DNA from: Lachnospiraceae bacterium
GTDB taxonomy: Bacteria > Bacillota > Clostridia > Lachnospirales > Lachnospiraceae
Reading direction: 5' to 3'
Assembly (NCBI GenBank): GCA_016290905.1
Contig: JAEEVO010000004.1
Coordinates: 1-64,000, forward strand
DNA: 64,000 nt
Shown here piece by piece: positions 43,689-61,883 of the stretch (positions are counted from its first letter, which is position 1; the number at the start of each line of letters is the position of its first letter). The position numbers and the translations under genes are program-made. The notes below the pieces were generated by a model. It had not been told where the DNA came from. It saw only the letters and a program-made list of their open reading frames with translations, and did no database searches.

Positions 43689-44831
43689 TTATAGATTGAT
43701 CACTAAAGCAGGGCGAATGCCCATGTCGTAGTAGGCATTGGTACCGATGGAGTCCACACTGCCACTTGAGCCCACATTGACGGCACTGATGTCACGGTAA
43801 CCGGGTGAGCGCAGCCACCACCAGAAAGACAGTTTATCCTCCTCAGTTTTTTCATAAATACTCGGATCAGCACCACGTGCCATAGCATAATCAGTAACAG
43901 CGCATTTACGTTTTTCATCACAAGTATCATAGTCTTTTGAAAATCCATAAGCTGTATTGATCATTTCAAGCTGGGACAGCAGGAATACCTTGTCCGCGGT
44001 ACTGTTTCCGCCCGGTGTTTTATACTCCGGATGATTTTTGTTTTTTATCGATGTTTCCTTTATCATCCCCTGCTCGGTTTCATTAAAGGCGTTCTCATAA
44101 AACCTTTTGTTCAGCCATTGCCTTAATGTACATGTTCCCCATGTAACCGTTCCCAGATCTTTGTTATATGGCATATAGTCAATAGCATATTTACTTAAAA
44201 CAACTATCTGTGACTTGGTTTTTTTAAGCACTATCCACTCTATAGGTTCCTGTCCGTTTATAAAGTTTCCGTCCTGCTCATATGCACCGAATTTAATTGT
44301 GTCACCTTTCTTTACTTTTGAAAAATCATACGATGACTTATATCCTGCGCCCAATTTCTTTGCTTCGATCGTTAAAGACTCAGGTTTACTGAACTCACTG
44401 TTTATTATGGAAGTATAATCTCCCAGATACTGTGCATTTACCTTGATCGTATATTTACCGGCGGGAAGAGTTTTACAATTTGCATTTATCAATTCCTCGG
44501 CTTTTATTGTTACTTTCCTTTTCTTTTTTCCTGATAAAAGTACATCCGCCACGTACTTATCTTCACAACTAAGATAATCATTGCTATACCATTCAGCCCC
44601 ATCATTATAAAGAGTATTATCTGCCTCAAAAGTCAGATAAACCATATAACTTTCTGCATTTTTTGTTTTCCCGATAGTTAATACTATACCTTTTTCATTC
44701 TTTGCGGCTTTTATAGAAATCTTGGGTGTTGCAACTTTTATCTCTTTTGCATCCGCCTGTACACTCCCAAACGGCCATAAAAGCAATACTGCTGTCAGCA
44801 TCAGAGCTAACACTTTCTTTGTAAATCTCAT
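43689..44831 (-). CDS. Secreted DUF6273-like domain protein
   Basis: Signal peptide; TWGTCTLRQWLNKRFYENAFNETEQGMI...FWWWLRSPGYR; related to 7851-10028. Confidence 0.72.
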   Translation of the reverse strand: MRFTKKVLALMLTAVLLLWPFGSVQADAKEIKVATPKISIKAAKNEKGIVLTIGKTKNAESYMVYLTFEADNTLYNDGAEWYSNDYLSCEDKYVADVLLSGKKKRKVTIKAEELINANCKTLPAGKYTIKVNAQYLGDYTSIINSEFSKPESLTIEAKKLGAGYKSSYDFSKVKKGDTIKFGAYEQDGNFINGQEPIEWIVLKKTKSQIVVLSKYAIDYMPYNKDLGTVTWGTCTLRQWLNKRFYENAFNETEQGMIKETSIKNKNHPEYKTPGGNSTADKVFLLSQLEMINTAYGFSKDYDTCDEKRKCAVTDYAMARGADPSIYEKTEEDKLSFWWWLRSPGYRDISAVNVGSSGSVDSIGTNAYYDMGIRPALVINL

Positions 44832-45129: not shown

Positions 45130-47691
45130 CTATGATAAGAATGAGTCAAATATATCAACGGAAAGTTCATCTTTTTCCGGAACAATATCCTTTTCATCAT
45201 TTCCGATATTATCATAATTCTTAGGAAAGTTTCCGTCAATCGCAATTTTTATATTATTTCCCTTTAGATAAATAATATTATTTCCGGTATCTGCTTCAAA
45301 ATAATAGTTTCCGGAATCAAGCCGGTTTAAAACATCTGCAAACATTTTTCCCGAACTCATAGAATAACTATTGTCAGTTCGTAGTACATTTGCAATATGT
45401 ATACATCTTCCCTCATAAAAGAACGGAACATAATATAATCCGGATGTATTTCGGACAGATATAGGAACTCCGATTTCTATACCACTATCAATATTGTTGT
45501 CTAAGCCTACAACAATGATCAATTCCTCTTTCTTCCCAATAATGTATTCTTTTACATCACTATCGTTCCGACTATAAAAATATATGTTATCCTTCTTCTC
45601 TGATGTCATTAAATTGTTTACAATTTCTCTATAGATAGGGAGAACTGACAGGAAAGTATCCTCATCATATACTCCTAACTGCTCCGGTGAATATACTCCG
45701 GCAAGGACTTTCCCTCCGGTTATTTCCGTGTCAAGCGGGTAACGGCATGAATAATCTCCTCTTAGGAAGTACGTTCCTTCATCTCCGCCCTTCTTTAAGA
45801 AATACAGCCATTTATCCCCCTTGATCATAGGTGTCAGTTCGGAATAAGTGATAATCCTTTGATTTTCTTCATCTATGAAGTTTTCCTGCCTTATGGTTAT
45901 TGTATCAGACTCCGCACTACCCTTATATACCTTGTCAATTTTGAATGTGTTATGCGAAAAGCCCTTATACTCCTTATATCTGCAATCAGTGATGTCATAT
46001 TGTCTGGTTGTTTCTTTTATTGCATCATCTATAAAGCTACCGGAAACTACTAAATCCGAATCCTCAAAAAGAGTATTGTAATCATCATATGGATTAAAAT
46101 ACCAGTTGGTCAAGACATAGTACGGATCAACCTTATATACTGCGTATTCTTTTCCATTGACAGACATTGTCCTTCCTGTATCGTATGCTTCCTCAATCGG
46201 CATTTCCCGTGATTCCGGTTTTTCAGCGATATACATCCTTTCCTCCTGAGAAAGGCTGTACAATTCACACCAATGATCTATATAATACAGATAGTATTTC
46301 CCATCCTTATAGGCATACTTACACCCAAGAAACGGTCGGAAATTCGTCTCACCATTTTTCTCAGGCATCTTTCTGTCACTGACAGCAGAAGATATTTCTC
46401 CAACAACATACTCTGAAAAATCCTCATCCATATCTTTTATGACAATATAACAATCCCCGTCTATCAAAAGAACCGACGGCAAAGAATTTGCTGCCCACTC
46501 ATTATCTTCAGCTGCGGCATCTTCATATTTTTGCTTGTAATAGTCTAAATCGATATGTTCTTCTAATTCAAGAAGTTCCTTAAGCTTTTTCCCCTGTTCT
46601 TCTTCAATTTCAAATCTCAACATACTCCAATAAGGTTTTAAACAGGTATCTCCTACAAAACAAACTGTCTGTTCACCACTACGATCAGAATAGGTAAATT
46701 TCAGCAATAGATAAAGTGAATTCTGTGGAATCTGCCGGTCATCATAACCCTGTGTCAGGTTCAGCTCATCAAAAAAATCTTTAATAGCATTTATCCTGTC
46801 AATATCTGTAATAGAATACTCAAACTCTTCACGATCATCAGTTACTGTCAGCCCAACGATATCTCCTTCGGGTAACAATCTGTAAATTCCATCATCTACG
46901 CGAATATCATCCAATAAAATCTCTTCGTCCCAATACTTAAACGTCCGTCCATCGCTTTTAAAATAGGAACTCAAATAGTAATCCGCATAATCAATCGGTT
47001 TAATTGTAGTAATTTTGTCATAATCTTTTCCCGCGTCCCCTACAATCCAGCTTAAGTCATTATCGATCTTTCGAATTATATATAATCCCTCAGCCTTACC
47101 AGGAAAAGAGTCCCCATATCTTAACGTATTAAAAGGTTCACATTCAGATCCCTGCTGATAACTATAGGAAAAGCTTGAAATGGTTGTTACTTTAAACTCA
47201 TCATTATCTTCACAATTCTTTATGCCTTCTGAAATCTTAAGGCTAAATGTTGAAATATAGTGTGTATAGTGTCCTTCTTCAACTTTGACCATAGAAATAT
47301 CACTGATACTTCCTATACCAACTATACTGGTTGTTTTTTTCAATGCGTATATATAATCATAAGGCGGGGCAGAACCGGAACCCAGACTATTTAAGGGCCA
47401 TTCAGAGTTATCTATTACCTGTGCCCCTTTTATCGATTTTAAAGTGCGGTACCTTCCGGTTTCGTCCATCTCGATTTCGTCTTGAACTGGAGCGGTGACA
47501 ACCGGAGTGACCGTATTTATACCAGGTTCTGAAACTGCACTTGTTATCACTGCCTCATCCGCCGTCTTTTCAAAAGAAGCATCATTTTTCTTTTTAGAGA
47601 AAAATACAGCACAGGCGACAGCTGCCACAGACAAAGCCAGCACCACTATAATCGAGATCACACTCATAGGTAAGCCTTTTTTATTATCCAT
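45130..47691 (-). CDS. Membrane-anchored surface protein (paralogue A)
   Basis: N-terminal TM (VISIIVVLALSVAAVACAVFF); first ~400 aa highly similar to 56767-59085. Confidence 0.75.
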   Translation of the reverse strand: MDNKKGLPMSVISIIVVLALSVAAVACAVFFSKKKNDASFEKTADEAVITSAVSEPGINTVTPVVTAPVQDEIEMDETGRYRTLKSIKGAQVIDNSEWPLNSLGSGSAPPYDYIYALKKTTSIVGIGSISDISMVKVEEGHYTHYISTFSLKISEGIKNCEDNDEFKVTTISSFSYSYQQGSECEPFNTLRYGDSFPGKAEGLYIIRKIDNDLSWIVGDAGKDYDKITTIKPIDYADYYLSSYFKSDGRTFKYWDEEILLDDIRVDDGIYRLLPEGDIVGLTVTDDREEFEYSITDIDRINAIKDFFDELNLTQGYDDRQIPQNSLYLLLKFTYSDRSGEQTVCFVGDTCLKPYWSMLRFEIEEEQGKKLKELLELEEHIDLDYYKQKYEDAAAEDNEWAANSLPSVLLIDGDCYIVIKDMDEDFSEYVVGEISSAVSDRKMPEKNGETNFRPFLGCKYAYKDGKYYLYYIDHWCELYSLSQEERMYIAEKPESREMPIEEAYDTGRTMSVNGKEYAVYKVDPYYVLTNWYFNPYDDYNTLFEDSDLVVSGSFIDDAIKETTRQYDITDCRYKEYKGFSHNTFKIDKVYKGSAESDTITIRQENFIDEENQRIITYSELTPMIKGDKWLYFLKKGGDEGTYFLRGDYSCRYPLDTEITGGKVLAGVYSPEQLGVYDEDTFLSVLPIYREIVNNLMTSEKKDNIYFYSRNDSDVKEYIIGKKEELIIVVGLDNNIDSGIEIGVPISVRNTSGLYYVPFFYEGRCIHIANVLRTDNSYSMSSGKMFADVLNRLDSGNYYFEADTGNNIIYLKGNNIKIAIDGNFPKNYDNIGNDEKDIVPEKDELSVDIFDSFLS

Positions 47692-47773: not shown

Positions 47774-47799
47774 GACGAAAAAAATATGTAAAAGGTAAC
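47774..47799 (-). promoter_or_regulatory. Candidate ECF-type promoter
   Basis: Minus strand GGTTAC-N17-CGTCTTATATATTGATAGAG, upstream of 45130-47691. Confidence 0.65.
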
Positions 47800-47837
47800 C
47801 TTCCACCAAGATTAGCAAATACTCCTCATTAACTTAT

Positions 47838-48077: not shown

Positions 48078-49346
48078 TCATTTCCCTACATCCATGACCG
48101 TCCCGATAAAGAAAGGTATTTTACTGTATGTGTCAATCAGCATAAATAAAAAAGGGCGGTCGAGATATACCTCTGGCGGTTCGGTCGGATTTAATGAAAC
48201 TCCGTTTTCCATATTCACTACCGTTGCTGCACCGGCCTTTGTACCTTGTTCGTCAACACTGATATATGTTTTATGTAACACGCTGCTGATAAACGGCCGG
48301 TTGTCATCCTCTTCACCTGTCTGCATGCCGGAAAAATCTGCCTTATCCGGGTCAAACGCATCTGTTATCCCAAGTTTCTTCAACGTTTCAGACATTTCAA
48401 TCGTATAATCAAATGAGAACTTAGGGATTTTTGTATAAATTTTCTCATTTTTAGCCGAAGAAATAAGATCCGCCAGGTTCTTTCCGTCTAAAGCTGCGAC
48501 ATAGTCCGATATGCTGATACCTGCTTTCGGCAAGAGTGCCACAAAGGCATACTTTCCACCTTTATAGGACTTTATAAAACCGGTCGCATTTTCACCTTCT
48601 ATATATTCGTATTCTGAAGAGCTCATGAATTCAACTTGCTTTTCGGTCCCATCTTCTTTGGTAAAAATTCCCTCTCTTACTGCCATATCCATATAAGCTT
48701 TCGTCCAGACAGCATCAAATGACAGTGCGTTAACAAGAAACATAAGATCATCTTTCTCTATTTCATCCAGTATCTTAGGGATCATACCGTCAGTCTTTTT
48801 ATTTACCCATTGATTTATCTCATTTAAAGCAGAATCATCAAACTCTCTTCTGTAAACATCTGCGCCATAAAAATCCGCGTTCTTCTGCAAGAAATCTTTG
48901 CTTACGTTTTTAAACCTCTCAGAGATCCAAATGGAATCTGCTAGCTTCAGATTACAGTATTGGCCTTTTTTAGTCATATAATCTATGTAATTATACATAT
49001 ACTGATCAAGCGTTTCAATGGGTACTCCGAACGCACTTTCAAACTGTGCCAGGGTTTCTTTACCGGCTCCGTTTGCGGTCATACCAAGTGCCGACATTAC
49101 GGACAGGGGCGAGATCAGCTGGTTTTCACCTTCTTTATAGCTGCTCTTAAACAGTTTTACTGCGAACTCGTTCAAAGCAGGAGCATACTCTTCTGCATGA
49201 ACGAGATCCTGTACACCTTCCTGTCTCTTTACATCTTCCATAAGGTCCGCAGCATTAGCCCCGGCAGTACATCCGGCAAGCAGTGAGCAGCACAAAATTA
49301 GTATCAAACATACGTGAGTTATCCTTCTCATTGGCACCCTCCTCAT
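48078..49346 (-). CDS. Lipoprotein serpin, predicted inhibitory
   Basis: Lipobox CSLLAGC; LISPLSVMSALGMTANGA; hinge DEQGTKAGAATVV; C-terminal DRPFLFMLID...PFFIGTV. Confidence 0.92.
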   Translation of the reverse strand: MRRVPMRRITHVCLILILCCSLLAGCTAGANAADLMEDVKRQEGVQDLVHAEEYAPALNEFAVKLFKSSYKEGENQLISPLSVMSALGMTANGAGKETLAQFESAFGVPIETLDQYMYNYIDYMTKKGQYCNLKLADSIWISERFKNVSKDFLQKNADFYGADVYRREFDDSALNEINQWVNKKTDGMIPKILDEIEKDDLMFLVNALSFDAVWTKAYMDMAVREGIFTKEDGTEKQVEFMSSSEYEYIEGENATGFIKSYKGGKYAFVALLPKAGISISDYVAALDGKNLADLISSAKNEKIYTKIPKFSFDYTIEMSETLKKLGITDAFDPDKADFSGMQTGEEDDNRPFISSVLHKTYISVDEQGTKAGAATVVNMENGVSLNPTEPPEVYLDRPFLFMLIDTYSKIPFFIGTVMDVGK

Positions 49347-49369
49347 AGTCTATCTTTCCCTCATTCACT

Positions 49370-49411
49370 GCAAAGCATCTTTAATAATTGTTCTTTATCC
49401 ACATCTTATGA
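49370..49411 (-). pseudogene. 3'-end remnant of a DUF4367-type anti-sigma gene
   Basis: Encodes DVDKEQLLKMLCSE*, compare VDKETLIKMLCGE* at the end of 60578-61270. Confidence 0.75.
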
Positions 49412-49462
49412 AACAAAACTATAAATCTATTTTTCATCCTTGCTACTCATATAACACAGTGT

Positions 49463-50980
49463 TCATGCAGGATTATTAACTATACCTGTAAACAACGGTA
49501 CATTTGTCGATGAAACTATCGAGAAAAGGAACGGTCTGTCCAGAGTATAGTAAAAATCCTCATCAGGTTCGATTGCACCCCACGCATCAATAGTCTGTAT
49601 TGCAACGGCACGGCACCCCTCTTCATCTATCATGACTCTTACACCCTGCTTGGCACTTTGTAAATATACATTATCCTTTTCGATCAAAGGAGAAAAATCA
49701 GCCAAAGAAGGATCAAATGCATCGGTTACTCCCAAAGCCTTTAATGCACCCTCAAGTTCCATACTTGACGATATATCAAACTTAGGTATGGAAATGTGGG
49801 TTCTTTTTATGTCATAATACAGGGTTTTTCCCGATAAGCATGCCAAAGCCTCACTATCCCGCAGAAGTTCTTCGCAGGTTACTCCCTCGTCAGGAAGAAT
49901 GGTTATCATCTTACAGCCGTTATCCATCATAAACGAAACAGAAGAAAACTTCTTTCCAAAATTATACGAGGTTTTTTCAGTATGCATAAAATCGCATTTC
50001 ACATCCCCATCCGGCGTATGGAATACATCCTCATTCGTTTTAGATTCATTAAATTTCTCCCTCCATGCTCCTGAGAAATTTAACGTTGAAGCTAATGTAA
50101 TGATCATTGCCGGACTCATTTTGATCTTTGAAACATAATCCTTTAACAATCCATCCGTATGATCGTTTAACCATTTTCGAAGTCTTTCGACATATTCCCC
50201 TGATGCCGGATCTCCGCCGAAAACCGAAGCATAATAGTTCTTTGCCAGTAATTCTATTACTGATTTTTTATAGGTTTCCGCTACATTAAGCCATAATGAA
50301 GCTGATGGGATGACTTTCGATTTTCCATTATCCATATAGCTTAATTCCCAGATGTTTTTTGCAGTCTGTCTTATAGTTTCAAGATCCTCAAGTCCAAGTA
50401 AAGCCGTTATCTGCCGCTGTGAATTGCCTTCCGTTATCTCAGCCGACATGGCCAGTGACATATAAAGGCTGATTGGTGAATATATCACATTTTTATCCGC
50501 ATCTGCAAGAACGGTTGCCGCAGTCTTTTCAAAAAAAGTGTATGTGCTTTCAAGTTCACTGTTCGACAGACGTCCTGCATTGTATTGAACCGTATCAGGG
50601 TATGTTGCAGTAGCTAGAAGGAATTGTGTATCTGTATCTGCTTCTTTCAAAACAACGCCCTCTTTACCATCCTGAACAAAACCGTTTTCAGATACGTTAT
50701 CTTTCATATTTGTAGGGTGATTTCCCGTATACGTCCGGTCATTACCGGAATTCATATGAATTTCATTTGCCTGTCTTGTGACAAAGAAAACAATGGCAAT
50801 AACGGCCGCAACAGAAGCAAACAAAGCGGCAACTCTAAATATTTTCTTTGAAGAAACAGGTTTGCTGTCCGTTTTTTCATTTCTGTCTTTTTCTGTTGTT
50901 CGTACATCCTCCGATATGTCCGGAACCAGTTCTTCATCAACTTCACCTATTGCGTACAGAAGCATTTCGTTGTTCTTCAT
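49463..50980 (-). CDS. Putative anti-sigma factor with extracytoplasmic serpin domain
   Basis: N-terminal LLYAIGEVDEELVPDISEDV, TM IFRVAALFASVAAVIAIVFFV, then a full serpin domain (IYSPISLYMSLAMSAE...DRPFLFSIVSSTNVPLFTGIV); start overlaps the sigma gene stop. Confidence 0.88.
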   Translation of the reverse strand: MKNNEMLLYAIGEVDEELVPDISEDVRTTEKDRNEKTDSKPVSSKKIFRVAALFASVAAVIAIVFFVTRQANEIHMNSGNDRTYTGNHPTNMKDNVSENGFVQDGKEGVVLKEADTDTQFLLATATYPDTVQYNAGRLSNSELESTYTFFEKTAATVLADADKNVIYSPISLYMSLAMSAEITEGNSQRQITALLGLEDLETIRQTAKNIWELSYMDNGKSKVIPSASLWLNVAETYKKSVIELLAKNYYASVFGGDPASGEYVERLRKWLNDHTDGLLKDYVSKIKMSPAMIITLASTLNFSGAWREKFNESKTNEDVFHTPDGDVKCDFMHTEKTSYNFGKKFSSVSFMMDNGCKMITILPDEGVTCEELLRDSEALACLSGKTLYYDIKRTHISIPKFDISSSMELEGALKALGVTDAFDPSLADFSPLIEKDNVYLQSAKQGVRVMIDEEGCRAVAIQTIDAWGAIEPDEDFYYTLDRPFLFSIVSSTNVPLFTGIVNNPA

Positions 50981-51528
50981 ATGTTAACGCCCTCTTTCTC
51001 CAAGTATTTCTTCAACTTGTCGCGTATCCTCTTAAGCGTCATCTTGACCGTCCCGACAGAAGCAGCCGTCTTCTCGGATATTTCTCCTACAGGCATCATA
51101 TACCAATATCTGTACATGAATATCCGTCTGTTTTTTTCCGGCAGTTCGCGCAGAAACCGATTGATCAGATCCTTCAGGACGACACCCTCCTCTATAAAGC
51201 TTCCCTTGCTTACACATTCTTCAAGTTCTTCCAGACATAAAGCTATCTCCCCGCCATTGTTCTTCAGGCTTTTATTCTGCCTAAAGCGGTCAATAGCCAG
51301 ATTCCTTGTTATTTTACCTAAAAAAAGTGACAGCTTCCCCGGCTTCTGCGGCGGTATGGCATTCCATGCCCTAAGCCATGTATCATTAACGCACTCCTCG
51401 GAATCTTCAGGAGAACTAAGTATATTTACAGCTATGCTCCTGCAATAGCTCCCATACTTCTCCTGGCTCATCTTTATAGCCGTCTCGTCTCTCTCCCAGT
51501 ACATTTCTACTATGTCTTTATCATTCAT
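50977..51528 (-). CDS. ECF-family RNA polymerase sigma factor
   Basis: Region 2 (SPEDSEECVNDTWLRAWNAIPP...LGKITRNLAIDRFRQ) and region 4 (LPEKNRRIFMYRYWYMMPVGEISEKTAASVGTVKMTLKRIRDKLKKYL). Confidence 0.93.
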   Translation of the reverse strand: MNDKDIVEMYWERDETAIKMSQEKYGSYCRSIAVNILSSPEDSEECVNDTWLRAWNAIPPQKPGKLSLFLGKITRNLAIDRFRQNKSLKNNGGEIALCLEELEECVSKGSFIEEGVVLKDLINRFLRELPEKNRRIFMYRYWYMMPVGEISEKTAASVGTVKMTLKRIRDKLKKYLEKEGVNI

Positions 51529-51681: not shown

Positions 51682-51707
51682 GACGAAAAAAACATCAAAA
51701 AAGTAAC
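51682..51707 (-). promoter_or_regulatory. Candidate ECF-type promoter of the sigma/serpin operon
   Basis: Minus strand GGTTAC-N17-CGTCTTATATATT; same geometry as 47774-47799. Confidence 0.65.
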
Positions 51708-51742
51708 CTCTCAGATTAATAAGTATTCAAATAAATAAACAA

Positions 51743-51790: not shown

Positions 51791-53035
51791 TTATGATGCG
51801 GACAGGTTAACCATCTTCGCCAGGTCAACCTTGCTGTCCGTAAACGTCAGCAGGTAGAATACGCCATCCTTTATTTTCATCTCGCTGCTTATCCAGAAAT
51901 CCGAAGCCATAGCTTCTCTCTCAATGTAACACTGATACCGTATGTTTCCATTGCTATCTGTGCATACTATCCATGGATCATCAACTTGAATAACAAAACA
52001 GAAATACTTGCCATCGGTAGCTATCAGTTTGAAATAGTCCTCTTCCCCGTATTTGACACCCTGTATATCAAATAACTTCCTGTATTTCCAGTCTTTTCCA
52101 ATCCTGTATACAGCCCACTGTGAATCCGCCCACTTTTCAAATAAGAGTCTCAAGCTTTCCGGATCATCATAGTCATATGTACCATCATCGTAAACTATTG
52201 CCCACCAGTCAGTCGCATATATGTTTTCTCCATCTTTTCCGATTTTGCCCCTTCCTGTCGGGATAATCTTTCCAAGACTTATAAATTTCTCTGTCACAGT
52301 ATCATATTTGTATACCAGCTGACCTGACCACGCATATAATTCACCCTCGATCTCACCGAATGAAAATTCGCTGTTTTTCCCCTTAGGGTTTACCAGTGTC
52401 TTTTTCTCACCGGTCTCAAGATCCATCACGCAGATCTTGTGGTCAAAATTCCAATACTGCCATGACTCTGAATCATTCCCATTAACAGCCTTGCTATAAA
52501 ACATCTTTCCGTCAAGTACATAAGCTGTTTCATGTGTAAGGCTTGAACCCGTCATATTGCCTTTATTATTGAATATCTTTTTAAGCCCGCTACCATCATA
52601 GTTTACTTCATAAAGATATTTCTTTCCCCAGAAATAAATCTTCTCTTCATCAGTACTCAAGACATAGTATACGCCCCTGGAAACAAGCGTTGACTTGCTT
52701 TTCCCTATCTCCATGCGGTACAAGCTGTTCGACCAGGGTTTCCAGTAATAAATATAATTGCCTTCAATAAAGAATTTCCTGACACCCTTTTTATATACCT
52801 TGGGAGCCTTTCCGCTTTCTGCCATATTTTTATCATAGCAGTATAATGTGCCATCTGTAAAATACAGTACCCCATCGTGTTCAATCCCGTTCACCCCGGC
52901 TGCACACTGCATCTCCAAGCTAAGCTTTGATACATCTACTTTATCTGATGCTGCTTTTGCTTCAACGCTGTACACAAGCGGTAAAAATATCAGAAGAATT
53001 AAAAAGAAAAGTGCTTTTCTAAGTGTTTTACCCAT
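51791..53035 (-). CDS. Secreted DUF5050/beta-propeller-like protein
   Basis: Signal peptide; repeated GVLYFTDGTLYCYDK, IYYWKPWSNSLYRMEI-type blades. Confidence 0.7.
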   Translation of the reverse strand: MGKTLRKALFFLILLIFLPLVYSVEAKAASDKVDVSKLSLEMQCAAGVNGIEHDGVLYFTDGTLYCYDKNMAESGKAPKVYKKGVRKFFIEGNYIYYWKPWSNSLYRMEIGKSKSTLVSRGVYYVLSTDEEKIYFWGKKYLYEVNYDGSGLKKIFNNKGNMTGSSLTHETAYVLDGKMFYSKAVNGNDSESWQYWNFDHKICVMDLETGEKKTLVNPKGKNSEFSFGEIEGELYAWSGQLVYKYDTVTEKFISLGKIIPTGRGKIGKDGENIYATDWWAIVYDDGTYDYDDPESLRLLFEKWADSQWAVYRIGKDWKYRKLFDIQGVKYGEEDYFKLIATDGKYFCFVIQVDDPWIVCTDSNGNIRYQCYIEREAMASDFWISSEMKIKDGVFYLLTFTDSKVDLAKMVNLSAS

Positions 53036-53111
53036 AGTAGAACCTCCTCATGTAATTGCAGAGAATATCAGGGAATTTTCTCAAAGATGCCATATAGCCC
53101 CGACTATACGA

Positions 53112-53140
53112 ATTATAACATCTTGCAAACCAAATATCAA
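53112..53140 (-). promoter_or_regulatory. sigma-A promoter
   Basis: TTGATA-N17-TATAAT on the minus strand; near-copy at 56725-56753. Confidence 0.65.
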
Positions 53141-53203
53141 TAGACTATCTCTGCTATCCCTTTCAAGTTCATGAATACAATTTCATCTGCTTCAGAAATT
53201 GTA

Positions 53204-54589
53204 TCACTTTATCTCCTTCTTACTCTCGTTCTCTTTTGTAATAGCTTCCTCCAGCGGAATGATCTTAACACCTGCAACTCGTCCACCACCATCATGCTCA
53301 ATCACATATACTTTACCATCACGAATTTTAGCTGTAACGGTGCTTTCATCAGCATCATAACCATCTTGAATATCATCTACTTTGTCAAGATATCCTAACG
53401 AAAACAGATAATTTCCTTCTCTATCAATAAATAAAGGGAAAAAATACTCATCCCCGAAACGAATGCACATGTAATCCTCATCTGCATAATCCAGATACAT
53501 AATGAAATCTTCATTTATTATATATCCTTGGTCAACACGGATATTAACGCCACTGAAGATGGGTATTAGTTTCCAATCAGCACCTACCCTGTAGATATCT
53601 ACAGTATTGATACACTGATCAACTCGAACCGAAGCGCTTTCCTTAAGTTCGTCAGGAATCTCGGTTATTATCTTGTACAGATACAGATATGTTCCGTCAT
53701 TCCCGAGAATATTATAAGTATGCTTTCCTCCAAAAATTTTATCGTTACTCCAATATGTTGGAAATTCAATATTCTTAACTTTTTTAAACTTTTCTTTTTT
53801 CTCGTTATATCGATAAATATCTGTTCCAGAAACGGCAAACAGTTCGCCTTCAATCTCATAGAAATTAAATTCCGGGTTGGCACCTTTTGGGTTCAGCACA
53901 GTTTTTCGTCCTGTTCCGTCAAGATTTTTGGAGCAAATCTTGTAATCACATGTTTTTCCAGAATAAGGATATGATGCATATGTACCATTTTCACTTTTAA
54001 ATCCACATGAATAAAAGAATCTGTCTTTGAAAAAGCATACCGACCGCCCACGGTTATACAGTCCATAGTTTCCACTGTATTTAGCAAGTAGTATACGGCT
54101 GCCATCTGTTTCTGAAACACTATAAAATTTATTATTATCCCACAGATAAAAATATCCATCTGTGTGAAAATCGGTAAGGCAAACGCCGTATTTTTCCTTT
54201 GACAGCTGTGTGGTTTTACCATCGCTTAAGTTTATGCGGTATACTGCATTGCCATAGCTTTTCGTATAAAAGATGGCATCATTGTCAATCCTGAAAGATT
54301 GTGCATTGTTGACGACCAATGTCGGTTCCTTACCTGTTTTTGATTGTTCAGCGGTATATTTATATAACTTTGCATCACTTATAAAATAAAGATCCCCATC
54401 ATACTCAACGCCGGTAAACACGGCTCCGGCCTGCATTTTCTCTCTAAGTCCTGATATATCAATAGTGACATACTTATCAGTTTCGCCTGTTACAGCCTCA
54501 GCTTTAACAGCATATCCTCCGTCCAACAGTGCACATACAACCAGACACAGTATAAATGCACACATAAATAACAATGATTTTCTAGACAC
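53204..54589 (-). CDS. Secreted DUF5050/beta-propeller-like protein
   Basis: Signal peptide; blades DGDLYFISDAKLYKYT, AIFYTKSYGNAVYRINLSDGKTTQLS; paralogue of 51791-53035. Confidence 0.7.
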   Translation of the reverse strand: MSRKSLLFMCAFILCLVVCALLDGGYAVKAEAVTGETDKYVTIDISGLREKMQAGAVFTGVEYDGDLYFISDAKLYKYTAEQSKTGKEPTLVVNNAQSFRIDNDAIFYTKSYGNAVYRINLSDGKTTQLSKEKYGVCLTDFHTDGYFYLWDNNKFYSVSETDGSRILLAKYSGNYGLYNRGRSVCFFKDRFFYSCGFKSENGTYASYPYSGKTCDYKICSKNLDGTGRKTVLNPKGANPEFNFYEIEGELFAVSGTDIYRYNEKKEKFKKVKNIEFPTYWSNDKIFGGKHTYNILGNDGTYLYLYKIITEIPDELKESASVRVDQCINTVDIYRVGADWKLIPIFSGVNIRVDQGYIINEDFIMYLDYADEDYMCIRFGDEYFFPLFIDREGNYLFSLGYLDKVDDIQDGYDADESTVTAKIRDGKVYVIEHDGGGRVAGVKIIPLEEAITKENESKKEIK

Positions 54590-54790: not shown

Positions 54791-54866
54791 GTCAAAGTCA
54801 CCTCGAAAACGCTTTCAGCGTTTCCTCGGTAACAAAACGATGCTCCGCATCTTCTGTTTTGTTATA
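54791..54866. repeat. 76-bp REP-like element, copy identical to 10045-10120
   Basis: Base-by-base identity over 76 bp. Confidence 0.92.
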
Positions 54867-56002
54867 TTACACTTCTTACGTAGTGCACGATACCCTATGT
54901 TTACATTTTCAAACATGCCGATATTCTTAAGTTTCTTACAGTTATAAAATGCATATTTCTGAAGCTTCTTACAAGTTTTTGGAAGGATTACTTCCTTGAG
55001 TTTTGCCGATTCATCATAATTATCATAATTGGAATTTACAAGGTACTTTGGTATTTTTTTAATTTTTGTTTCACTTAGATCAAGTCTTGTTATATTCCAT
55101 CCTATACTCTTTGATTCTATTGAAGTTATGGTATTGGGAAGCTTCAGTTCTACCGGTTCATCAAATCGAACATTACAGAATGCATAATATTCTATCTTTG
55201 TTACCTTGTATTTTTCACCTTTATAGTATACTATTGAAGGCTGCGTATAGCATGTCCCTTTTATCCCCTTCTTTTTCAAAGCATATGAACATATAAGGGA
55301 CACAGTCTTTTTATCAGGATTCAATATCCTGTAATATGAATCCTCAAATATAAAAGCCTCCGGATTAACACTGCTGTCACCTATTTTAGCAATAGGAATT
55401 CCTGTATAGCTCCGTATTCCCCTATCATTATCCAAGAATATACACCGTAGCTTTCCGGCAAATAATGCTTTATATTCTTCAAGATATTCCTCAGGGACAT
55501 ATATGATACTCTCAATTGCGGCGTCATTCACATCTATGCTTTCTATCTGTTCAAAAGCATCCGGCGAACACTTAAAAACGAACTTAACACCATGGATTTC
55601 TTTTACTTTCTCTGATTCCGGATTTCTTTCCAGATCAAAAGTAAAATGTTTTACTTTAATAATATTAGTCGTTGCAGGTATTTCTATTTCGCTAATCCAC
55701 TCCGAATTCAAAGTACCATTTGGGGATTCTATAGCTGTTACGGTATAAAGTGTATTTTCATACATGACTGTTTCAGGTATCACGATCTTTACAGAGTTGA
55801 CCAGATTTATATCATCAAATTCATTTTCCCATCCAATGACCGAACAGATGTTTTCTTCGCCGGTATTCTTTATCTCAAAAGTAATAATCCCGGTCTCATC
55901 GGTAAATGTATCACCTACCTGTACTGCCTGTATCTTATGGCTACTTGTCAAAGCAATAAACACCAGTGTAAATATAGCAGATAAAATCAATGTCTTACTC
56001 AT
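54815..56002 (-). CDS. Secreted leucine-rich/BspA-like protein whose C-terminus lies inside the REP element
   Basis: Signal peptide; IRFDEPVELKLPNTITSIE..., LKEVILPKTCKKLQKYAFYNCKKLKNI; last residues ITKQKMRSIVLLPRKR* are REP-encoded. Confidence 0.75.
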   Translation of the reverse strand: MSKTLILSAIFTLVFIALTSSHKIQAVQVGDTFTDETGIITFEIKNTGEENICSVIGWENEFDDINLVNSVKIVIPETVMYENTLYTVTAIESPNGTLNSEWISEIEIPATTNIIKVKHFTFDLERNPESEKVKEIHGVKFVFKCSPDAFEQIESIDVNDAAIESIIYVPEEYLEEYKALFAGKLRCIFLDNDRGIRSYTGIPIAKIGDSSVNPEAFIFEDSYYRILNPDKKTVSLICSYALKKKGIKGTCYTQPSIVYYKGEKYKVTKIEYYAFCNVRFDEPVELKLPNTITSIESKSIGWNITRLDLSETKIKKIPKYLVNSNYDNYDESAKLKEVILPKTCKKLQKYAFYNCKKLKNIGMFENVNIGYRALRKKCNITKQKMRSIVLLPRKR

Positions 56003-56766: not shown

Positions 56767-59085
56767 CTAAACCAGATTTATTTTTTGACATTTGTCAATC
56801 AACGTAAATTCCCCGTTAACAGTATCATATTTGTAATTGTCATGAATAACGTATACACAGTCTCCTACTACAGCCGCATGCATCCAGCATTCATCCGTAT
56901 ATCCAGCTATCTGCAGATTCAGAAGCAGTTTGCCGCCCATATCGGTCACGATTACCCTGTCCACTTCCTCACCATTGGCTCCATAACTTAAAAGATAACC
57001 GTTCTTTATAGAAAAATCTCCTACACTAGTCCACTTTATATCGGAATATCTTCCAAAGGTTTCCCATTTTCCATTTCTGTCCTCTCTGAGGATTATTAAG
57101 CCTCCGCCACTCTCATACTCTGAAATATCCATATTGTACGAATAACCGTCAGTCTGTCTTTTATCATATTGCGGATATTTATCGGCAAGTCCAAGCTTCA
57201 CAAACTTATTTCCGTTATATTGATATAACATGTTGTGTTCATATGGAATATCTGCCATCTTTTGGCTATAGTCAGTATAAGCGATCAATAAATCCTGATC
57301 ACGGATAACTAAATCTGCCTCTGCTATGCCTTCCAGTTTTTTCATAAGCTTTTTTCCGGTTCCGTCTGGGTTGCAACTATAAACTTTAGTTCCTTTCACA
57401 TAGCCTTCCTTTGAAGTAAAATAAGTCTTGAAATAAATCTTACCCTCAAACACGGTAACCATAGTATCCGGTTCTTTATATCCTGAAGAAACATTTGAAG
57501 CTATCCGTCTTTTTCCTGAACCGTCCGTACCTATAACATATAGTCTGTTCTTACCTTTAGTCTCATCAGCAAAATATATTCTGTTCTCATATTTCCGAAC
57601 ATATCCACTCCAGCCATTTTTCGTTAGCCTCATCTTTTTTCCTGTATCAAGGTTTACAGCATAAAGTCTGTTATCGGATAAACTGTTATAGAACATATAA
57701 TTATCGATAAAATTCGGAGTGAAAACATCGTTTTTATATTTTTTCAATTCATAATTTTTTATCCCTATCCTGTAAACATCCCTGTCCGATGCTGCGCTCT
57801 TATAGAAATACATGTAATCTCCATATACATATCCGTAAACAGCCATATAAGCTGTCCATGTCTCATCTAATCCGCAGTTCGTTATAACTTCATCTTTAAT
57901 GGTTTCAGGATCATATATGTCTTTTGACCTATAAAAGTCCATATCGACATGTTCTTCTAATTCCAGAAGTTCCTTAAGCTTTTTCCCCTGTTCTTCTTCT
58001 ATAACAAATCTATAATTACTTGAATAAGGTTTCAGACAAGTATCTCCTGCAAAGCAAACTATATGTTCATTACCTCTGTCAGAATAAGAAAATTTTAGCC
58101 ATAGATAAAGTGAATTCTGCGGAATCTGCCATTCAGCATAACCCGGTGTCAGATTCAATTCATCAAAAAATTCTTTTATAGCATTTAACCTGTCAATATC
58201 TGTAATAGAATACTCAAATTCTTCACGATCATTAGTTACTGTCAGCCCAACGATATCTCCTTCAGGTAACAATCTGTAAATTCCATCATCTACGCGGATG
58301 TCATCCAGTAAAATCTCTTCATCACAATACTTAAACGTCCGTCCATCGCTTTTAAAATAAGATTTCAAACAGTAATCCGCGTAATCAATCGGTTTAATTG
58401 TAGCAACTTTATCATAATCTTTTTCCGCATCCCCCACAATCCAGCTTAAGTCATTATCTATCTTTCGAATTATATATAATCCTTCAGCCTTACCAGGAAA
58501 AGAGTCACCGTATCTTATTGAATTAAACGGTGTACACCCGGCTCCCTGCAGATAACTATAGGAAAAACTTGAAATAGTTATCACTTTAAATTCATCCTCG
58601 TCCTTACAATTCTTTATGCCTTCTGAAATTTTAAGACTAAATGTTGAAATATAGTATGTATAGTGTCCTTCCTCAACTTTAACCATAGAAATATCACTGA
58701 TACTTCCTATACCAACGATACTTGTGGTTTTTTTCAAAGAATACATATAATCATAAGGCGAAGTATCACCGGAATCCTGACCATTTAACGGCCATTTGGA
58801 ATTATCTATTACCTCTGCCCCTTTTATCGATTTTAAAGTGCGGTACCTTCCGGTTTCATCCATCTCGATTTCGTCTTGAACCGGAGCGGTGACAACCGGA
58901 GTGACCGTATTTATACCAGGTTCTGAAACTGCACTTGTTATTACTGCCTCATCCGCCGTCTTTTCCAAAGAATCATCATTTTTCTTTTTAGAGAAAAATA
59001 CAGCACATGCGACAGCTGCCACAGACAAAGCCAGCACCAATATAATCGAAATTGTATTCATAGGTAAGCCTTTTTTATTATCCAT
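56767..59085 (-). CDS. Membrane-anchored surface protein (paralogue B) with DUF5050-like C-terminal half
   Basis: First ~400 aa highly similar to 45130-47691; C-terminal half has propeller-like YMYFYKSAASDRDVYRIGI, RLYAVNLDTGKKMRLTKNG. Confidence 0.75.
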   Translation of the reverse strand: MDNKKGLPMNTISIILVLALSVAAVACAVFFSKKKNDDSLEKTADEAVITSAVSEPGINTVTPVVTAPVQDEIEMDETGRYRTLKSIKGAEVIDNSKWPLNGQDSGDTSPYDYMYSLKKTTSIVGIGSISDISMVKVEEGHYTYYISTFSLKISEGIKNCKDEDEFKVITISSFSYSYLQGAGCTPFNSIRYGDSFPGKAEGLYIIRKIDNDLSWIVGDAEKDYDKVATIKPIDYADYCLKSYFKSDGRTFKYCDEEILLDDIRVDDGIYRLLPEGDIVGLTVTNDREEFEYSITDIDRLNAIKEFFDELNLTPGYAEWQIPQNSLYLWLKFSYSDRGNEHIVCFAGDTCLKPYSSNYRFVIEEEQGKKLKELLELEEHVDMDFYRSKDIYDPETIKDEVITNCGLDETWTAYMAVYGYVYGDYMYFYKSAASDRDVYRIGIKNYELKKYKNDVFTPNFIDNYMFYNSLSDNRLYAVNLDTGKKMRLTKNGWSGYVRKYENRIYFADETKGKNRLYVIGTDGSGKRRIASNVSSGYKEPDTMVTVFEGKIYFKTYFTSKEGYVKGTKVYSCNPDGTGKKLMKKLEGIAEADLVIRDQDLLIAYTDYSQKMADIPYEHNMLYQYNGNKFVKLGLADKYPQYDKRQTDGYSYNMDISEYESGGGLIILREDRNGKWETFGRYSDIKWTSVGDFSIKNGYLLSYGANGEEVDRVIVTDMGGKLLLNLQIAGYTDECWMHAAVVGDCVYVIHDNYKYDTVNGEFTLIDKCQKINLV

Positions 59086-60577: not shown

Positions 60578-61270
60578 TCATTCACCGCACAGCATCTTTA
60601 TCAATGTTTCTTTATCCACATCTGAGGAAATTAAATCATAAACGTATTTGCCATCAGTAACAATAAGATAGTAACAAGTATCACCCCACTTGCTATCTTC
60701 TATTAGCACCCCGGAATACTCTCCAAAAGCTACATTTTCACTTTTTCCATGCTCAGCTCCGTAATGTGTTTTTACCCAAGTCACAATTTGACTATAATCA
60801 ATGAATTTATTACCTTTTCTATAACTAATAGCATATGATGTATCCGTCCTGCCTTCATATTCTTTTTCAAACCCTTCGGGTACCCAGACAGGCTCATAGC
60901 AGTTTTCAATAACTTTCGGAGGTTCTTCTCCATTCATATCTCTGTCATCAAACGTAACCTCGGTATGGTTATCGAGTTCCTTAACCTTTAATCTATTGAT
61001 ATATCCCATAACCAGAGAGAAACCGCATAATCCGACAGCAACACATACTATAGTTATCAAGCATGCTGCTTTGCTGAATTGCAGGCTTCCGATATGCCAG
61101 ATCGATCTTTCTTTTGGGGACGCTGATTGCGGGCATTCTTCCCTGTACCCGGAAATATCCATAGATTGGAGAATTTCTTCTACTTTCTGGGAATCGTCTG
61201 CAGATAGTCCGGTTTCACCATAATAAAGCTTTATAGCCTCTTTCATTGTCCGGTCTTTTTCTTCTTTCAT
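60578..61270 (-). CDS. Anti-sigma-like membrane protein with DUF4367-like domain
   Basis: TM AACLITIVCVAVGLCGFSLVM; C-terminal VWVPEGFEKEYEGR...YCYYLIVTDGKYVYDLISSDVDKETLIKML; downstream of a sigma gene. Confidence 0.75.
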   Translation of the reverse strand: MKEEKDRTMKEAIKLYYGETGLSADDSQKVEEILQSMDISGYREECPQSASPKERSIWHIGSLQFSKAACLITIVCVAVGLCGFSLVMGYINRLKVKELDNHTEVTFDDRDMNGEEPPKVIENCYEPVWVPEGFEKEYEGRTDTSYAISYRKGNKFIDYSQIVTWVKTHYGAEHGKSENVAFGEYSGVLIEDSKWGDTCYYLIVTDGKYVYDLISSDVDKETLIKMLCGE

Positions 61271-61313
61271 ACCACCCCTCACTCCTGCAAATATTCCGAT
61301 TTTTTCTGTATAA

Positions 61314-61883
61314 TTATACATTTGTTTGCCACCCTTTCCTTAGGAATACCTTTCTCAAAACTGCGATGCTCCGATACACCCTTTTCTTTGCCGCATCCTC
61401 GCTTATCCCGTGCTTTTCCGCAATCTGCTTCATCGTCAACTCTTCATAAAAGTATTCTTTTATATACTTCCGATGCTTTTCGCTCAACCTGTCCAACGCT
61501 TCCAACAGGTCGATTACCTCATACTTCTTCAGAACCGTGTTCTCAAAAGACTCAACACTGAAGCCGTCATCGTTTTCTTCAATTTCATCAAGAGGGATTT
61601 CATGAGATTTTATCTGCCGGTTCTTTCTGTATGCATCGATAGTAAAGTGTCTGACGACCTTTAAAACATAGTGCCGTGTTTTTTCCTCATTCTTGCCCAC
61701 TTTATCTAAGTTTCGGGCAAGATAAGAAAATGCTGACTGACATGCGTCCCGTGCAAGCTCTGAGTCCCTCAGCACACTGTATGCTACTTCTACGGCAATA
61801 CGGCAATATTTATCATATAATTCATCAAAAATGATATCCGGATTATCATTTGACTTTTTCATAATATCTGCTAAATACACCAA
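61314..61883 (-). CDS. Sigma-70 family (ECF) sigma factor
   Basis: AYSVLRDSELARDACQSAFSYLARNLD and region 4 LSEKHRKYIKEYFYEELTMKQIAEKHGISEDAAKKRVYRSIAVLRK. Confidence 0.9.
   Translation of the reverse strand: MVYLADIMKKSNDNPDIIFDELYDKYCRIAVEVAYSVLRDSELARDACQSAFSYLARNLDKVGKNEEKTRHYVLKVVRHFTIDAYRKNRQIKSHEIPLDEIEENDDGFSVESFENTVLKKYEVIDLLEALDRLSEKHRKYIKEYFYEELTMKQIAEKHGISEDAAKKRVYRSIAVLRKVFLRKGWQTNV

Follow-up and report, generated by a model that had tools for sequence, protein, structure and literature searches.

Transmembrane serpins paired with ECF sigma factors in gut Clostridia as putative anti-sigma factors

What is a serpin doing on the outer side of a membrane protein whose gene overlaps that of an ECF sigma factor? 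The question is raised by a locus of a Lachnospiraceae bacterium (assembly GCA_016290905.1), lying within the first 64,000 nucleotides of contig JAEEVO010000004.1, the stretch analyzed here and called the window. The earlier note on this DNA had proposed that the serpin domain is a single-use sensor of extracellular proteases, whose attack or collapse would release the sigma factor and induce protective surface proteins including a nearby lipoprotein serpin.

Organization of the sigma-serpin locus

As listed in Table 1, the three genes recognized in that note, encoding the sigma factor, a transmembrane (TM) serpin and a lipoprotein serpin, were all confirmed on the minus strand. The sigma protein contains sigma-70 regions 2 and 4 only (Sigma70_r2, E 1.4e-11; Sigma70_r4_2, E 2.9e-11; TIGR02937, E 2.6e-21) and, at 183 aa, has the size of an ECF factor (about 180 aa). 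Its TGA stop codon shares the tetranucleotide ATGA with the ATG of the TM serpin gene, and the latter has the layout of a membrane-bound ECF anti-sigma factor, namely a co-operonic gene, a cytoplasmic segment, one TM helix and an extracytoplasmic sensor. The ATGA, the Pfam search and AlphaFold together bore out the 4-bp overlap, short cytoplasmic N-terminus, single TM helix and whole outer serpin described before. Serpin was the only Pfam domain found in this 505-aa protein (E 4e-56), located C-terminal to the TM helix. In the AlphaFold model of the product of 49463-50980, a prediction that had been suggested as a check, the domain adopted the serpin fold (domain pLDDT about 85), residues 45-76 formed the TM helix, and the reactive loop (466-479) was disordered. 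The top PDB matches returned by Foldseek for this model were all serpins (tengpin, antithrombin and PAI-1), and latent-state tengpin was also among the matches.

Table 1. Features of the sigma-serpin locus and its surroundings in the window
Feature	Position	Strand	Evidence
ECF sigma factor, 183 aa	50977-51528	-	Sigma70_r2/r4, TIGR02937
Anti-sigma-like TM serpin, 505 aa (the sensor)	49463-50980	-	ATGA overlap with sigma gene, Pfam, AlphaFold, Foldseek
Cytoplasmic N-terminal motif, residues 1-25, MKNNEMLLYAIGEVDEELVPDISED, putative anti-sigma segment	50906-50980	-	Motif common to sigma-linked serpins; comparable N-termini in proteins other than serpins that accompany paralogous sigmas
Single TM helix, residues ~46-72	50765-50845	-	Sequence; model helix 45-76
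Serpin domain, residues 159-504	49469-50506	-	PF00079 E 4e-56; Foldseek to PDB serpins
Hinge and reactive centre loop, residues 455-479, GCRAVAIQTIDAWGA-IEP, expected P1 Ala469	49544-49618	-	Alignment with 53 sensors
Lipoprotein serpin, 422 aa, perhaps a local target; not conserved as a component	48078-49346	-	PF00079 E 1.4e-87; lipobox SLLAGC; hinge GTKAGAAT
ECF-type promoter GGTTAC-N17-CGTC, 5' of sigma gene, presumed autoregulation	51682-51708	-	Exact extended site
ECF-type promoter, second copy, 5' of 853-aa gene	47774-47800	-	Exact extended site
853-aa TM protein, no Pfam match, candidate second sigma target	45130-47691	-	Promoter only

The operon sits among genes for surface or secreted proteins (54815-56002, 51791-54589 and 43689-44831 (-); BspA-type LRR, a DUF5050 match and DUF6273). 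In addition, at 60578-61883 (-), a second ECF sigma gene, only distantly related to the first, precedes the gene of a TM protein with DUF4367; the two are likely another sigma/anti-sigma pair.

Recurrence of the pair and its N-terminal segment

The survey of sigma-serpin gene pairs across Clostridia that the earlier note had called for was carried out, and yielded 54 distinct pairs of a sigma factor and a TM serpin from Lachnospiraceae, Oscillospiraceae and other gut Clostridia. From a survey of 397 genomes of the family together with a scan of named genomes, 167 distinct serpin proteins were collected, of which 54 were encoded directly 3' of a sigma gene of the window-sigma family, a proportion not to be taken as a population frequency, the named-genome scan having been seeded with sigma-linked sensors. 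The distance from the sigma stop codon to the serpin domain ranged from 325 to 626 bp in the sigma-linked serpins, PF00079 was detected in all 22 serpin sensors scanned, and a full-length match including the N-terminus was present in at least 16 of the 397 family genomes. Among the named carriers are Cuneatibacter sp. NSJ-177, Flavonifractor sp. AGMB03687, Candidatus Blautia stercoripullorum and Oscillibacter MAGs. The host genome encodes five serpins, among them a second sigma and TM-serpin pair (C12, L004) whose sigma factor and sensor are 48% and 38% identical, respectively, to those of the window. Furthermore, in another family, a distant sigma type (about 100 bits to the window-sigma profile) was accompanied by a TM-serpin partner with the N-terminus MKDRDIINMFDHVDPETLAETD (L188-L190), apparently a second coupling of a serpin to a sigma factor. 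Serpins of the sensor clade, or whole sigma-serpin pairs, were seen in tandem at four loci (L120, L047, L125 and L194).

The sigma-linked serpins start with a motif resembling MKxxxLxdAIgxiDDdLieeA, followed by a basic stretch and the TM helix. When the motif profile was tested by jackknifing, clear scores outside the sigma-linked set were confined to L120 (a tandem copy belonging to the same operon) and L147 (at a contig edge), while a few sigma-linked members themselves scored weakly; motif and sigma adjacency coincide almost without exception. Lipoboxes were recognized in 5 of the 54 sigma-linked serpins as against 78 of the 113 others, and those five are apparently chance hits within TM helices. 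Meanwhile, genes of paralogous sigma factors in the host and other genomes (L086, L181-L183) were found to be followed by proteins with a similar N-terminus and TM helix and a non-serpin exterior. Since such N-termini also occur on non-serpin partners, the N-terminal segment goes with the sigma factor, and the sensor, here a serpin, is the part that is exchanged. The sharing of this segment among sigma partners suggests that the sensor N-terminus binds the sigma factor. Together with the tight association of motif and sigma adjacency, it supports the earlier proposal in part and provides good evidence that the sigma-linked TM serpin is an anti-sigma factor with an extracellular serpin as its sensor.

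Reactive loop, output and membrane anchor of the sensors

In an alignment of 53 sensors, the hinge was found to be well conserved, with Ala at P12 in 51, Ala at P10 in 51, Thr at P8 in 50 and a nearly invariant Gly at P15. Judged by the features of an inhibitory hinge (Gly at P15, Thr/Ser at P14, small residues at P12-P9 and Thr at P8), all of which are present in the window lipoprotein serpin, the sensors keep P15, P12, P10 and P8 and differ at P14, where Val or Cys replaces the canonical Thr/Ser, and at P9, which is Tyr or Phe. Even-numbered hinge residues point inwards once the loop of a serpin has been inserted, and for this reason the sensor loops look insertable. The variability of P5-P3 was near or above the 90th percentile for the domain, and P1 was mostly Ala, Ser, Thr or Gly (48/53), residues that would suit elastase-like or subtilisin-like targets. 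The combination of a conserved hinge and variable P5-P3 looks like the pattern of a working loop.

The window sensor itself is an outlier, in that its hinge (GCRAVAIQT) deviates at P11, P9 and P8 and Gln replaces the shutter His. Given this degenerate hinge and altered shutter, it may be weakened, and its trapping of proteases is doubtful; the claim of a single-use trap is weakened for this copy because its hinge departs from that of the family. The same two features would be expected if the serpin were a passive cleavage sensor or tether, its fold serving as a stable cap with a bait loop, such that clipping of the loop or linker by any extracellular protease would start anti-sigma proteolysis in the absence of trapping, and the variable length of the linker between TM helix and serpin domain among the sensors also fits such a cap. 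However, nearly all other sensors have the conserved hinge, for which a simple bait loop would have no need, and we consider this explanation possible but rather unlikely.

As for the output, the extended bipartite promoter site occurred twice in the assembly with no mismatch, in front of the sigma gene and of the 853-aa gene, the sigma2 promoter being next best. Upstream of serpin-linked sigma genes, TGTCA-N17-CG[AT]C was present in 17 of 52 cases versus 0.5 expected, and a spacing of 17 was found in 11 of 14 strict cases; the motif was absent or unrecognized in about two thirds of the loci. In three genomes the strict site was single, namely that of the sigma-serpin operon itself, and strict searches in the host genome and six others returned almost only the sigma operon, with the reservation that weaker members of the regulon can escape such a search and that the assembly of the window is about 81% complete. 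The total of promoter sites in the host genome was no higher than that of the reversed-pattern control, and neither of two weak sites there (C65 and C173) was followed by a correctly placed ORF of 100 aa or more. A large regulon was accordingly rejected on the basis of these seven genomes. The genes 3' of the sigma-serpin operons, which normally comprise two genes, showed no conservation, and only 3 of 44 loci had another serpin within 4 kb. The promoter motif and the lack of conserved downstream genes point to autoregulation as the output, with the serpin itself as the main product.

The lipoprotein serpin, whose only Pfam domain is Serpin and whose hinge is canonical, had been put forward as an induced effector. 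This role did not generalize, in view of the 3 of 44 loci and of its belonging to a deep clade different from that of the sensors; it was rejected as a conserved partner, and the evidence points to a local addition. The earlier model, in which the sigma factor would serve a separate protective programme by inducing this serpin and the 853-aa protein while inhibition by the sensor itself would be unimportant, gains from the exact second promoter copy and from the position of the lipoprotein serpin gene directly downstream of the sensor gene, no terminator-like site having been found between them. The scarcity of further serpins at the other loci and the single strict promoter in three other genomes speak against it, and we regard it as unlikely in this form. 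Judged from its promoter, the 853-aa protein is probably a second target of the window sigma factor. Its first 388 residues are 86% identical to those of another large TM protein encoded at 56767-59085 (-), the C-terminal halves being unrelated, and the gene of the latter is likewise preceded by an ECF-like promoter copy, which lacks the C of CGTC.

The serpin tree was divided into two clades. All sigma-linked serpins fell in one, together with many lipoprotein relatives; the other, mostly canonical with a GTKAGAAT-type hinge, holds the window lipoprotein serpin and contains no sigma-linked member. The shutter is altered in most sensors (Ser56 to Asn, Asn186 to Ser/Thr), as it is in their sigma-free lipoprotein relatives. 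The changes that P14 and the shutter show throughout the clade, as well as the match to latent-state tengpin, would be compatible with a non-protease ligand, or with a protease-independent conformational sensor (of heat, pH or latency), as in non-inhibitory serpins such as hormone carriers. The small conserved hinge residues and the variable P5-P3 nevertheless resemble an inhibitor under target-driven selection, making such a function very unlikely.

After some contig-edge and tandem copies had been relabelled or dropped, well-supported branches of the tree forced at least six changes of anchor between lipoprotein and anti-sigma TM helix, so that the anchor has switched repeatedly. Switching is most evident for the C12 sensor, the closest relative of which, L192 from a genome of the same genus, is a lipoprotein with 67% identity and no sigma gene found beside it; this is a recent switch of anchor. 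Although such frequent switching could be taken to favour a chance or local adjacency free of regulatory meaning, that explanation is hardly credible and was rejected because the pairing recurs, in 54 distinct pairs that have a common N-terminal motif and a serpin gene starting where the sigma gene stops, and again in the distant sigma type with a serpin coupling of its own.

Proposed mechanism and relation to known systems

To the reading in which the serpin is an inhibitor and a receptor at once, with protease engagement leading to anti-sigma proteolysis and the sigma factor to replacement serpin, we give about an even chance. In this mechanism, the cytoplasmic N-terminus of the membrane anti-sigma factor would hold the ECF sigma factor, and the outer serpin would be both bait and inhibitor. 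An extracellular protease attacking the reactive loop would cleave the serpin, whereupon the loop would insert and the protease would be trapped or the serpin spent. This change would make the juxtamembrane stretch accessible to a site-1 protease, probably signal peptidase as in RsiV, and a site-2 protease would then free the sigma factor; the host genome encodes a site-2 protease and signal peptidases. An AxA motif just after the TM helix was present in 23 of 49 sensors versus 8 of 56 other serpins (p 5e-4), a difference that is confounded by kinship; the motif also occurs in sigma-free relatives, and it is only suggestive of a signal-peptidase site. The freed sigma factor would produce mainly more sigma factor and more serpin, since its promoter precedes its own operon, and consumption of the inhibitor would thus be coupled to its replacement. 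As each serpin molecule serves only once, such coupling would be economical. In the host genome, the lipoprotein serpin encoded downstream in the same direction and, as a probable second target, the 853-aa protein may be added to this output. In short, we infer a protease as the signal, the cleavage route, the binding of the sigma factor and the replenishment of the serpin. The stronger version, that the irreversible stressed-to-relaxed change of the serpin is itself the transmembrane signal and that the sigma factor, once free, directs resynthesis of the consumed inhibitor, constituting a one-shot, transcription-coupled receptor, is put forward tentatively.

The closest precedent is RsiV, which binds and inhibits lysozyme and is exposed by this binding to cleavage by signal peptidase (PMC5014341, PMC6066255). 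In the RsiV/sigma-V systems of B. subtilis and C. difficile, as proposed for the serpin sensors, an outer domain that is both inhibitor and receptor of a host-type enzyme is combined with an ECF partner. The serpin sensor differs in its fold, that of a suicide inhibitor of proteases, and its signal and cleavage route are putative. None of the 22 serpin sensors matched DUF4179, and the partner of a paralogous sigma factor remained below the threshold (18.7 vs 30.1 bits); membership in the DUF4179/RsiV (ECF30) family, whose mark is this domain combined with TM and amphipathic helices, was therefore rejected. The earlier note had drawn its analogy to RsgI-type anti-sigma factors, and RsgI/sigma-I of Clostridium thermocellum does resemble the serpin sensors in being a membrane anti-sigma system with exchangeable extracellular modules. 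That system, however, employs sigma-I and polysaccharide-binding sensors, whereas the window pair has an ECF sigma factor and gave no match to the RsgI N-terminal domain; the RsgI type was rejected for want of this domain, and RsiV is the better comparison.

Serpins of gut bacteria have been described in other contexts. The serpin of Bifidobacterium breve is protease-inducible and autoregulated via a two-component system (as cited in PMC8012564). It is comparable to the window system as a gut bacterium's serpin gene, induction by proteases being the B. breve feature, and differs in that the two-component system lies beside the serpin operon with no sigma factor or serpin-bearing anti-sigma factor. 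The siropins of Eubacterium siraeum, along with other group T serpins of bacteria, occur in the gut and have elastase-type targets (PMC5127057, PMC8233489); they are described as plain inhibitors, with no cytoplasmic anti-sigma segment or sigma linkage. A search of the open literature, most subscription papers lying outside its scope, returned nothing relevant on a serpin together with an ECF or anti-sigma factor. The serpin is a new sensor type within a known kind of system, near RsiV in its logic and outside the DUF4179 family.

In the many gut Clostridia that carry the pair, the serpin inhibitor probably doubles as a receptor that reports protease attack. The records of Cuneatibacter sp. 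NSJ-177 and Flavonifractor sp. AGMB03687 are not marked as metagenome bins, and these organisms may permit an experimental test. With this system, it becomes a testable question by what route an extensive conformational change outside the membrane could start the proteolysis of an anti-sigma factor. If the proposal is true, bacteria would possess a serpin-based signalling circuit, apparently reached with two distant sigma types, and gut Clostridia would directly detect host or rival proteases, including the elastase-like ones raised in gut inflammation.
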